Shown here: positions 10,426 to 31,218 of the stretch, piece by piece
How the letters are laid out: every line of letters begins with the position of its first letter
Position numbering within the stretch: position 1 is the stretch's first letter
IMG/VR virus record: IMGVR_UViG_3300037294_000266
Location: 124,001-188,000 of that record
Origin: a virus
Direction: 5' to 3' (one strand)
Length of the DNA: 64,000 nucleotides
Program-made: the position numbers and the translations under genes
The notes under the pieces: generated by a model
What the model saw: the letters and a program-made list of their open reading frames with translations, nothing else
The model's database searches: none
What the model was told of the DNA's origin: nothing

Positions 10426-12585
10426 TCAAGGTATTTCTAAAGCGTAGCGTGACACCACTTCGTTATGAGACAGTACCTTCCGATGAAAGAAGTCTTTCTT
10501 ATTACGGTGGTATTTACAATGCTGCTCGATCTCAAGACACATGAAGTAAATGAATTCAGGTGAGACATCAGGGAAATCAATGAGCGGGCGGGTTCGACCC
10601 AATACCTGTTCATTAGACTGACGTGAGTCTACTGCGGTGGTCATGAATGAACAACGCAGGTTCTTCAAGTCGATTGCTGTACCACCAGAACCAAGCGTGG
10701 TTACACCGATGTCACATTCCAACAAGTCCTCGTAGGGATCGTTCTCAGACCCTGCATAGCGAACAACGTTGAACTCCGGATACATCTTCTTAAGGCGCTC
10801 GACCATCAACGTACACAGGTCAACCCGTGAGAAGAACACTAAAGCTTTCTGCCCTTCTTCCCTCACTGAGACGTAACGGTTGTAGATCGCATCATCGATG
10901 ATTTTAAGGTAGCTCTTAAGCAACCCTTTATGTCGCATGATGGATTCTTCAAACGTCGTGTGAGAGTAACCCTGCGCGCCCATGAACTTAAGACGTATGT
11001 CCTGGTCCATGTGGTACATCATTGCTGTCACGTCAATGTAAACGTGATACCCGCCACCGTCATGTCGCTGGTTAATCGGATAGCCGATGTCGTACACACG
11101 GTTCTTGAAAGCATCTGAACTTGTCATGGTAGCAGACAGGCCCAGTGATTTAGGGACGTGGGTATACAGATCGATCCTGTAGTTGTTATGGAACTCTTGG
11201 TGAAGTTCGTCAGTCACGCGAAAGCCGACATTGAGCTTTGGATAGAAATCGATAGGCTTGATTGGATAGAGCTTACTCAGGCCGTTAGATTCTTCGTAGT
11301 TCTTAATGTAGTCACGCATCGTAGCCGAGGTGATGATGATGACCTGAGCTTTCAGATCACCGTCTAACGCCATCTGCTGCAACGCAATCATGTCCTTCGC
11401 ACCACGGACAACAAAGAAGTCGCCGCGCTTGAATTTGAAGGTCTTCTCGAGGTCATCCTTCCAGCGACTGACATAGCCGCCTTTGAAGTGAATGACTGTC
11501 CTGACCTTCATCTGGTTCATGCAGTACTGTGCCACGTACGTGTTGTGAGTGACAATGAAGTCTTTCACAACAAACAACTTCGACGGATGTGCCACCGCTA
11601 TACATACCGCTTCACCAGGCACTGGCAGGGGGATGATAGACTTGATTGCGAGCAATCCGGACTTAGGCCTGAGTTCGATCGACACTGACACTCGATCGTC
11701 ACCCATATCTCGCAAGGTAGCCAAGCCGCCAATTGAACGTACTGCAAATACCACTCGCTTAGCTGTCGCACCGTCGAGTACATATACGCCATCTGCTGCA
11801 CGGCCAAGGCATCTGACAATGCCTACAAATCGTTCACGGAGCCCAGCACGTTCAGGTTCAATCAATGGCACGCTGACAGCCGTCTTACGGATCAGCATGT
11901 TCATGACTGTTTCAGTGGTTACTGTCCGCCAGCCTGAGAACGAATTAACGTGCCAAAGGTGCTCGAGGTCTGCATCGACGAAACGACCGTCTTCGAACGT
12001 TACGCGGTAAAGCTTCTTAGGGCCTTGTGGGTAGACACCTGTGACTTCGGTGGACGTGCCGTCTTTAGACACGACAAGATCGCCTACCTTTAACTGTCCC
12101 ATTAGTTTCCAGCCACCAGGAACACGGACAGGCGTCTTAGCGCAGAGTGCTTTACCACCACCTGTCTGCAACGTTACCATTTTAATAATGGGATCCCACT
12201 TTGGGTTCTCAGTATCAAGTACGTATTCGATGATCCCTATCTGCTTCTCACGAGGCGGGAACATGTGACGGACATCGAACTCAACCTTAGGGATGTCCGC
12301 AATGGTCACTCCATGGTGCACAATGGGGACTAGGTGTTCGACGTAGCCATTCATCCTAAAGAGATGACGTTTTAATTCCTCGAGTTGGTTCCTATGGAAA
12401 CTGAATTCCTTTCGGTCGCGTGTTGCTGCTGCGTATGTGCGCAGACCCTTTGGTATGAATCGTTTACCTTTCTTCTCGAAGCCCATCTCGATAAGTGGTT
12501 TGCAAAACGAAAGCATTGCCTGTAGGTCGCGTTCATTCAACACATCTCTAACTTTGATGGTGTGGCTATAAACGTCAATTTTCAT
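10426..12585 (-). CDS. SF2 DNA/RNA helicase interrupted by an intein
   Basis: The 719-residue precursor is a superfamily 2 helicase. Walker A is split: TGGGK ends at residue 145 and the matching T is residue 349, with a 203-residue intein between them. Downstream are the Walker B box DELH (459-462), motif III-like GLSATM (482-487) and motif VI-like QVLGRTRP near residue 670. The spliced product would be 516 residues, with an N-terminal accessory region of about 110 residues. phiKZ has a helicase (gp75) directly after its gp74 RNA polymerase subunit, and this gene holds the same position, so it is probably the counterpart; role in replication, recombination or transcription is inferred. Without splicing the ATP site is broken. 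TAGGAT lies six bases before the ATG; terminator follows. Confidence 0.85.
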   Translation of the reverse strand: MKIDVYSHTIKVRDVLNERDLQAMLSFCKPLIEMGFEKKGKRFIPKGLRTYAAATRDRKEFSFHRNQLEELKRHLFRMNGYVEHLVPIVHHGVTIADIPKVEFDVRHMFPPREKQIGIIEYVLDTENPKWDPIIKMVTLQTGGGKALCAKTPVRVPGGWKLMGQLKVGDLVVSKDGTSTEVTGVYPQGPKKLYRVTFEDGRFVDADLEHLWHVNSFSGWRTVTTETVMNMLIRKTAVSVPLIEPERAGLRERFVGIVRCLGRAADGVYVLDGATAKRVVFAVRSIGGLATLRDMGDDRVSVSIELRPKSGLLAIKSIIPLPVPGEAVCIAVAHPSKLFVVKDFIVTHNTYVAQYCMNQMKVRTVIHFKGGYVSRWKDDLEKTFKFKRGDFFVVRGAKDMIALQQMALDGDLKAQVIIITSATMRDYIKNYEESNGLSKLYPIKPIDFYPKLNVGFRVTDELHQEFHNNYRIDLYTHVPKSLGLSATMTSSDAFKNRVYDIGYPINQRHDGGGYHVYIDVTAMMYHMDQDIRLKFMGAQGYSHTTFEESIMRHKGLLKSYLKIIDDAIYNRYVSVREEGQKALVFFSRVDLCTLMVERLKKMYPEFNVVRYAGSENDPYEDLLECDIGVTTLGSGGTAIDLKNLRCSFMTTAVDSRQSNEQVLGRTRPLIDFPDVSPEFIYFMCLEIEQHCKYHRNKKDFFHRKVLSHNEVVSRYALEIP
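11542..12150 (-). other. Mini-intein with class 3 signature (residues 146-348 of the helicase)
   Basis: The insertion starts with Ala (ALCAKTPVRV) directly after the Walker A Lys and ends VTHN before Thr, exactly where removal restores GGGKT. The N-terminal block continues GGWKLMGQLKVGD, typical of Hint domains. Class 3 inteins lack a nucleophile at position 1 and instead use a Trp/Cys/Thr triplet. Here W211 is in the HLWHV block, C328 in VCIAVAH of block F, and T346 in THN, all fitting. At 203 residues, no LAGLIDADG or HNH endonuclease is seen; the region 215-320 could hold a decayed linker. Confidence 0.85.
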
Positions 12586-29307: not shown

Positions 29308-31218
29308 TTAGAATCCAGGGCCGTGACCGAAGCCATTGCCCACGCCACCGCGCTGGTTACGCGAACCATCACCCATAGTGCGACGACCAGAGGTCATGCC
29401 ATGAGTCAGATCGCCACCAACGAAACCACGTACCTGGCTGTTACCACGAACGCGACGAGCGCCGAAGTTGTAGTGAGCCTGACGCTGATCGATGTTGATC
29501 TTGCAATCAACGATCGCTGCGGCGATAGCTTCCACGAACTTCGGATCGATGTACGCCAGTTCAACGTAACGAGCGAAGTGAACGCCGGACGCAGTCAGAG
29601 CCTGGGTCAGCTGGTCATACTGCTCGGATACGCGGATCTCAACATCGAGATCAGTACGACCAACGATGTCTTGGTAACGCATGGCCGACTCACCTTCGTC
29701 AGAAGGATTGGTAGCCATCCAGCGCAGCAGGTCCCAGTCGCGCAGGTCGCGCACTTTGCCGTTCTCGTCGATCCAGGTACCGGTCAGGTAACGAGCACCC
29801 GAGGCAACCAGAGGAGTTTCCACGCCCAGTTCGCGAGCACGACGAGTGAAGTTGCCGTTGGTCAGACGATCGCAGTATGCGTACAGACGGCGTACAGCCG
29901 AACCGTCAGCGCTGGTATCGTTAGCGGCATCGGACAGCAGGCTGGTCAGCCAGCTATTGTCGCCACCTTCTTCCAGCTCGATCGCCCATGCCAACTTGTC
30001 GTCAACGAGGGAGAAGAAGTACTGACCCCACTTGTTCACATCCAGGCTCGAACGGCCGTCGAATACCACTGGCGAATTATCTTCGTCAGGGCCGAGGATG
30101 TTCAGCAGACCGGTGTCCTTGAAATCGGTCTCGCCACGGGCAAGATCGTTTGGCAGGAAGGTCTGTGCCCACGCCTGGTCTTTGGTTACAACGGAAGCAG
30201 CACCCAGGGCCAGAAGCAGCAGCTCAGGAGTGATGGCGTTGTTGGCCGAGTCCATGCGGTTGATGATGAAGGTCGGGGTGTAATGAGGCTCACCACGACG
30301 GCCAGCAGGTTTCCAGCGCTCTTCTTGAGCTGGCGGAGTGTAGACCAGTTCAACGTAACCGCCGATCGAAGACAGGCCGATTGGCAGCGACTGCTCGCCT
30401 TTGCGGATGATGCCGGCTACCGAGATCGACAGATCAGAGCGACGCGGCAGGCCATCAGCGGTGTAGCTTTCACGACCGGACATGTCGACGTTGATTTCCA
30501 ACGAAGATTGCTTGCTCAGCCAATCCAGGTTGAAGTAGACGTCGTTGTTGAACGCATCGTTGTTGGTGGAGGTCAGAGCCACCTGGCTGTAGAACACAAC
30601 CGAGCGCACTTCAGTGGATTCAGGATCGTTGAAGTCAACACCCTTATCCACGATACGCCAGCCGGCGCGAACGATTTCGATGCTGCGGCGCGTGGCTTCG
30701 AACTTCTTCTTGACGATATCGTCGATCAAGGCCAGGTAGGACTCGGTCACGTAGTCAGAAGGAACGACTGGCAGCGGGTAGGTGCGGCCGGAGATTTCGA
30801 CGTTGCGAACGGCAACTTCGTCGAGCAGCGATTGGCCGAGGGCCAGGGAGTGGACCAGAACCTTAACACCGTTGTTGGTTTCGATTGGCAGAGCCAGGAT
30901 AACCGACGACAGGGAAACGTTATGTTCAGTGGCTTCCAGACCCATGATCTCGATCTTGCTGAGATCGATGTTCGAAGAACCGGCGACGTTACGCTCTGGA
31001 TCGAACCAGAACTTTACGGCTTTGATAGCAGATACCAGGACTTCGCCGCTGGTACGGCGGGACATCGGAGCGCCCAGGAGGCGGTTGATATCGAGCAGAC
31101 CGGCCTGATAACCTTGGCTTTCGCGAGCAGGGCGTTCAGTGCGGGTTTGAGCTTGTGCTTGATCGCGACGTTCTTGGCCGAGACCGTCGTTGTTGGTGCT
31201 TTCGTCATTGACTGCCAT
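29308..31218 (-). CDS. chmA: Phage nucleus shell protein chimallin
   Basis: A 636-residue protein in the position of phiKZ gp54, directly upstream of the gp55-type RNA polymerase subunit; the known shell proteins are about 600-630 residues. It assembles the proteinaceous shell that encloses phage DNA, replication and transcription and excludes host nucleases. The sequence has a flexible polar N-terminus (about 40 residues, Gln/Arg-rich), a globular core, and a C-terminal tail rich in Gly and Arg (RRTMGDG, NGFGHGPGF), consistent with the flexible N- and C-terminal segments that link protomers in ChmA lattices. Codon use is strongly biased to C/G-ending codons compared with neighbours, as expected for a very abundant protein. 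Its own promoter-like motif lies 77 nt upstream; GGAG before the ATG. Confidence 0.88.
   Translation of the reverse strand: MAVNDESTNNDGLGQERRDQAQAQTRTERPARESQGYQAGLLDINRLLGAPMSRRTSGEVLVSAIKAVKFWFDPERNVAGSSNIDLSKIEIMGLEATEHNVSLSSVILALPIETNNGVKVLVHSLALGQSLLDEVAVRNVEISGRTYPLPVVPSDYVTESYLALIDDIVKKKFEATRRSIEIVRAGWRIVDKGVDFNDPESTEVRSVVFYSQVALTSTNNDAFNNDVYFNLDWLSKQSSLEINVDMSGRESYTADGLPRRSDLSISVAGIIRKGEQSLPIGLSSIGGYVELVYTPPAQEERWKPAGRRGEPHYTPTFIINRMDSANNAITPELLLLALGAASVVTKDQAWAQTFLPNDLARGETDFKDTGLLNILGPDEDNSPVVFDGRSSLDVNKWGQYFFSLVDDKLAWAIELEEGGDNSWLTSLLSDAANDTSADGSAVRRLYAYCDRLTNGNFTRRARELGVETPLVASGARYLTGTWIDENGKVRDLRDWDLLRWMATNPSDEGESAMRYQDIVGRTDLDVEIRVSEQYDQLTQALTASGVHFARYVELAYIDPKFVEAIAAAIVDCKINIDQRQAHYNFGARRVRGNSQVRGFVGGDLTHGMTSGRRTMGDGSRNQRGGVGNGFGHGPGF

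Follow-up and report, generated by a model that had tools for sequence, protein, structure and literature searches.

A predicted class 3 mini-intein in the Walker A motif of a phiKZ gp75-type helicase

Our analysis of the window, the 64,000-nt stretch spanning positions 124,001 to 188,000 of virus record IMGVR_UViG_3300037294_000266 (266,646 bp in total), points to an intein in a helicase gene read from the minus strand. We put at about 0.92 the probability that a 203-aa insert in this gene is a class 3 mini-intein, one that would excise itself and ligate its exteins between Lys145 and Thr349. A first-pass annotation made from the letters alone had proposed a class 3 mini-intein in the Walker A motif of a phiKZ gp75-type helicase, and every test that we ran supports it.

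The open reading frame at 10426-12585 (minus strand) translates into a 719-aa precursor, an SF2 helicase (phiKZ gp75/UvsW-like) carrying the intein. It matches the PHROG 16 DNA helicase family (E = 1.2e-28) and is 29% identical to PHIKZ075 of phiKZ across 498 residues. The order of the neighboring RNA polymerase subunit genes is that found around PHIKZ075: an RNA polymerase gene lies directly upstream of the helicase gene both here and in phiKZ, and the helicase gene follows RNA polymerase subunit genes in many relatives as well. Taken together, whole-length homology and gene order place the protein in the phiKZ gp75 helicase family. In phiKZ itself, the intein site is empty, and PHIKZ075 is 537 aa long. 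The phage of this record probably builds a phage nucleus, since a gene in the window at 29359-30771 (minus strand) encodes a homologue of chimallin (gp54), which forms the nuclear shell of phiKZ (25% identity, E = 4.8e-25).

Residues 141 to 145 of the precursor read TGGGK and are followed by the insert (residues 146 to 348; 11542-12150, minus strand) and then by Thr349. The N-extein (residues 1 to 145; 12151-12585, minus strand), delimited by alignment with empty alleles, ends in TLQTGGGK, the first part of Walker A; the C-extein (10426-11541, minus strand) holds the DELH box and the C-terminal helicase domain. Joining the two flanks regains GGGKT in a 516-aa helicase with the predicted spliced junction peptide LQTGGGKTYVAQ; its Pfam DEAD match reaches 27.3 bits, above the cut-off of 26, where the precursor scores 20.7. 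The insert begins with ALCAKTPVRVPGGW, its first residue being Ala, and ends with DFIVTHN. The coordinates and residues given in the first-pass annotation (TGGGK, the 203-aa insert, the Ala start, the VTHN end, W211, C328, T346, and the 516-aa product) are all correct. The start that it quoted, GGWKLMGQLKVGD, contains W14, which is not the class 3 Trp; the signature residue is W66 of the intein (W211 of the precursor) in block B, the one that it had in fact picked.

Class 3 inteins are defined by a Trp at B:12, a Cys at F:4, and a Thr at G:5, and they do not need a nucleophile at position 1 (PMC3196547; PMC7664689, the sources of the criteria used here). The window intein has the complete WCT set, namely, W66 (Trp211, block B position 12; 11953-11955, minus strand), C183 (Cys328, block F position 4; 11602-11604, minus strand), and T201 (Thr346). 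It also has the block B His, H64 (His209, block B position 10; 11959-11961, minus strand), and the C-terminal H202 and N203, which with T201 form the end of block G (Thr346-His347-Asn348; 11542-11550, minus strand). The comparison covered 33 inteins, of which 32 occupy this site in members of the helicase family and one, SL2_135, lies in another helicase. The block B His and Trp, the block F Cys, and the terminal Thr-His-Asn are invariant in 33/33, with the Thr-His-Asn conservation partly ascertained in the intein-profile scan, whose search pattern contained DFIVTH, and free of such ascertainment in the helicase-based sets. Residue 1 is Ala in the window intein (12148-12150, minus strand), giving it no position-1 nucleophile, and is A, R, M, L, E, V, D, S, or C among the 33. 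SL2_135 had been considered as a gp75 orthologue and was rejected; the gp75 orthologue of SL2 lies at 215399-216889.

The predicted structure has a Hint fold. An AlphaFold2 model built from 38 sequences reached a pLDDT of 93.0 and a pTM of 0.89, and among PDB entries it matches the class 3 DnaB inteins 6rix, 6riy, and 6bs8 best (E 7e-9, target TM 0.73 to 0.83); a prediction from 7 sequences gave a pLDDT of 77.8, with the C terminus poorly placed. Curated family libraries miss the window intein: searches of Pfam and NCBIfam returned no intein match above cut-off (Hom_end_hint scored 16.4 bits against a required 32.1). Nor did a DNA-level search of the intein against the phage collection give a match; within that collection, its relatives are therefore at the protein level only.

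Following the class mechanism, Cys328, the predicted initiating nucleophile by analogy with characterized inteins (PMC6195587; PMC3196547), would attack the Lys145-Ala146 peptide bond with the aid of His209, Trp211, and Thr346. The N-extein would then pass to Thr349, the +1 residue of the C-extein and also the Walker A Thr (11539-11541, minus strand). Asn348 would cyclize with the help of His347, and an ester-to-peptide bond rearrangement would leave a ligated helicase that again has GGGKT. We infer each of these chemical steps from the intein family. The same family gives good grounds to expect a precursor without ATPase activity before splicing, because 203 residues of sequence then separate the Lys of Walker A from its Thr and ATP binding should fail.

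The window intein appears to descend from a larger mobile element. Full-length inteins of 342 to 343 aa with both LAGLIDADG motifs occupy this same site in L003, L004, and L007, the last matching LAGLIDADG_3 at 1.5e-11. The window intein has no counterpart of residues 107 to 200 of the L003 intein, the second LAGLIDADG motif is gone too, and with both motifs absent it is a mini-intein. Its match to a class 3 profile falls into two parts, 1 to 112 and 225 to 336, with nothing between. What is left, as indicated by the alignments, the gap in the profile match, and the model, is a remnant of the second LAGLIDADG half at intein residues 104 to 158 (11677-11841, minus strand), from which the catalytic motif has been lost. 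When residues 130 to 147 are aligned with the second LAGLIDADG half of L003 and L007, they outscore 500/500 shuffles, but they do no better than chance against some other full inteins; the remnant is thus recognizable but worn. In the model it is folded, with helices at 104 to 114 and 127 to 139 and strands at 122 to 126, 143 to 150, and 153 to 159. Neither a LAGLIDADG_3 domain nor another class 3 intein occurs anywhere in the record, so the phage's own genome supplies no LAGLIDADG homing enzyme of that family. We propose that a LAGLIDADG homing intein spread among phiKZ-like phages at this exact site, and that loss of the first endonuclease half and of the catalytic motifs would have left the window intein unable to home by itself. 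It would persist because losing splicing would wreck the P-loop of a presumably needed helicase.

Decay followed a similar course elsewhere: the seven decayed alleles examined (EL, SL2, LPKP23, phiKT1028, AhC3_1, L002, and the window) all lost the first LAGLIDADG half, and all seven retain the last helix-strand element of the second half, around VRSLGG, as though folding depended on it. This consistent half-loss and half-retention, the predicted folding of the remnant in the window intein, and an endonuclease-less mini lineage common to diverged phages would fit a domesticated splicing module whose remnant has a regulatory or structural role, the endonuclease-less inteins of this helicase being kept as working parts and not as dead passengers. 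We consider that idea unlikely.

The closest characterized systems are M. smegmatis DnaBi1 and M. chimaera DnaB1 (PDB 6bs8 and 6rix), which, like the window intein, are endonuclease-less class 3 inteins with a WCT set. They too sit in a helicase P-loop with a P-loop Ser or Thr as the +1 residue, and they are its best structural matches. The host protein is a phage SF2 helicase here and the hexameric DnaB in mycobacteria, and the +1 residue is Thr here and Ser in mycobacterial DnaB. The window intein is also longer (203 aa versus 139 to 145 aa for the mycobacterial DnaB inteins), since it has retained the folded LAGLIDADG remnant.

These systems raise the question as to whether the intein is a retained regulatory switch, with conditional splicing (by redox state, metal, or location in the phage nucleus) gating the helicase. 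Msm DnaBi1, an endonuclease-less class 3 mini-intein in the DnaB P-loop, is inhibited by peroxide (PMC6195587), and zinc is reported to inhibit mycobacterial DnaB splicing (PMC7360933). Endonuclease-less alleles at 64% identity persist alongside empty ones, one mini lineage is common to phages with 72 to 77% identical exteins, and the phage has a chimallin homologue. The first-pass annotation had raised both redox state and entry into the phage nucleus as possible triggers, and the redox form of this proposal fares poorly. The Msm DnaBi1 switch is a disulfide between Cys118 and the nonconserved Cys48 (PMC6195587); unlike Msm DnaBi1, the window intein has Leu47 at the latter position, and a Cys is found there in 0/29 gp75-group inteins compared. 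A DnaBi1-type redox trap is therefore not supported by these alignments. The other two Cys residues of the window intein, C3 and C114, are missing in its closest relatives, L001 and L006, and only the catalytic Cys is conserved; its oxidation alone is possible, as for any class 3 intein. Moreover, many close relatives live without the intein, and a neutral element lost only by precise deletion would also persist and transfer. Gating of the helicase by this intein thus seems quite improbable.

The opposite prospect is that the intein has decayed beyond splicing, leaving the helicase a pseudogene. One such splicing-dead class 3 intein is known, Arthrobacter Arth_1007 (PMC3196547), and the endonuclease of the window intein has itself decayed. 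However, both residues lost in Arth_1007 (the His at B:10 and the Cys at F:4) are intact here, and the exteins are full length, open, and conserved. Among the three endonuclease-less relatives, silent changes are far commoner than those that alter the protein, with a dN/dS of 0.026 for the mini-intein pair L001 and L006. Most comparisons have a saturated dS, so that for the window's own intein purifying selection is seen only as a pN (0.27) well below pS (0.82). We judge a dead intein very unlikely.

A class 1 or 2 intein that had lost its first residue would also begin without a nucleophile, as the Ala start does, and the class 1 intein gp41-1 is a close structural relative. Phylogenetic analysis places the window intein elsewhere. 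A maximum-likelihood tree built from 106 columns of the splicing blocks puts it with further gp75 inteins and the class 3 references mycobacteriophage ET08 gp202, MchDnaB1, and MsmDnaB1, while the class 1 inteins Npu DnaE, Mxe GyrA, Ssp DnaB, and gp41-1 fall on the opposite side, gp41-1 being the nearest of them. The branch joining all class 3 inteins without gp41-1 is weak (74.3 SH-aLRT/36 bootstrap), and that holding class 3 plus gp41-1 reaches 92.6/92, so that class 3 clade membership has the modest support that 106 columns give. With the full, invariant WCT set present, class 1 or 2 identity is rejected as extremely improbable, and we retain the class 3 assignment.

Close relatives carry both empty and occupied versions of the site. 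A scan of viral contigs with the helicase as a query returned 14 loci, and the phage collection added Pseudomonas phage pPa_SNUABM_DT01, a phiKZ/Noxifer-related jumbo phage (PMC8541153). The site is empty in 7 of the 14 (L008 to L014) and in pPa_SNUABM_DT01, whose helicases are 516 to 518 aa long. L008 to L013 (79 to 81% identity to the joined exteins) and pPa_SNUABM_DT01 (81%) have an uninterrupted TLQTGGGKT, and L014 reads TGQGKT with no insert. The other seven loci bear an insert at exactly the window's site. The uninterrupted Walker A of these orthologues, together with the same invariant His, Trp, Cys, and Thr-His-Asn in 32 other inteins, indicates that the insertion is not a chance one: as expected of an intein, it is in frame, its removal restores a conserved motif, and relatives have empty alleles. 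Relatives that held the stretch inside a folded helicase domain without intein motifs had been named in the first-pass annotation as evidence that would count against it, and the comparison came out in favor of the intein. A native insertion domain of the helicase would likewise be in frame, with its recognizable endonuclease lost and no significant Pfam or NCBIfam intein match, but that reading is refuted and next to impossible, given close orthologues that lack exactly this stretch with Walker A intact, the Hint fold with class 3 best matches and invariant intein catalytic residues, and the near-identical helicases L048 and L049 with quite different inserts.

Pairwise comparisons of exteins and inteins show turnover of alleles at this site (several contigs recur under two labels: L042 = L006, L044 = L004, L046 = L001, L047 = L003, L048 = L002, and L049 = L007). 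L048 and L049 have 99% identical exteins, yet their inteins, of which one has decayed and the other has an endonuclease, are 42% identical, and L047 and L044 have 96 to 97% identical exteins and 74% identical inteins. In the other direction, the L049 and L050 inteins are 97% identical with exteins only 70 to 81% identical, and the endonuclease-less inteins of L046 and L042 are 93% identical with exteins at 72 to 77%. The helicase-based scan covered 48 loci, which are not independent; the 18 that are occupied all have Thr as the +1 residue, and the 30 unoccupied ones have Thr (16), Ser (8), or Gly (6) there. As judged from these differing identities and the mixed occupancy, the site is an intein homing site where gain, replacement, decay, and absence are found side by side, with full-endonuclease, endonuclease-less, and empty alleles swapped between phages.

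The site is not new, being occupied in the public genomes of many related phages, and the window intein is a new, ordinary member of a known phage class. Inteins occur at the same site in Pseudomonas phage EL (ORF040), Xanthomonas phage LucasX (LUCX_80), Erwinia phages Rebecca and Kwan, Proteus phage 10, Klebsiella phage LPKP23, Vibrio phage phiKT1028, and Aeromonas phages. They share the gene family, the K^T site, and the invariant residues with the window intein, whereas their exteins are only about 27 to 38% identical to the window's. In most of them the LAGLIDADG endonuclease is complete with two motifs, and a few have decayed, their deletions having other borders. The abstract of the EL genome paper reportedly mentions intein-associated endonucleases. 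GenBank labels the LucasX gene "intein-containing," the AerS_266 gene is annotated as a "DOD-type homing endonuclease," and the LucasX and AerS_266 papers make no mention of an intein. The first-pass annotation had not known of any gp75-group intein in the literature. The papers that we searched likewise describe none, but inteins are present in many public phage records of this group, the LucasX label among them. The intein of MIJ3 is in DNA polymerase B and not in the gp75 helicase gene (PMC6892783). Mycobacteriophages carry class 3 inteins in TerL, within the ATPase domain, and in a RecB-like exonuclease (PMC5050341); these too are class 3 phage inteins, but they sit in other host proteins and on a separate class 3 tree branch. 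The single intein is ordinary, as a Lys/Thr insertion is the "classic" P-loop insertion (PMC5050341), and the allele collection is of more interest. The collection brings in a large, unstudied group of class 3 inteins at a single site of a jumbo-phage helicase, where close relatives have empty, mobile, or decayed alleles. This set offers a natural system for following the cycle of intein gain, decay, and loss and for asking whether the timing of splicing matters to the helicase in a phage that probably makes a nucleus.

Several further observations concern the wider helicase family. Homologous helicases in L057, L067, L069 to L071, and L074 have TGxGKG in place of GKT/GKS in Walker A, and all are intein-free. 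Two intein-bearing helicase genes are split into two reading frames, that of Salmonella phage SA002 (L022:783-3373) within Walker A itself and that of Pseudomonas phage PA1C (L037:2000-5154) within the endonuclease part; either sequencing error or decay could account for these breaks. Finally, inteins of 252 aa occupy the same helicase site in L079 and L081 to L086 and belong, together with L106, L119, and L147, to another class 3 branch, which suggests a second, independent invasion of the site.
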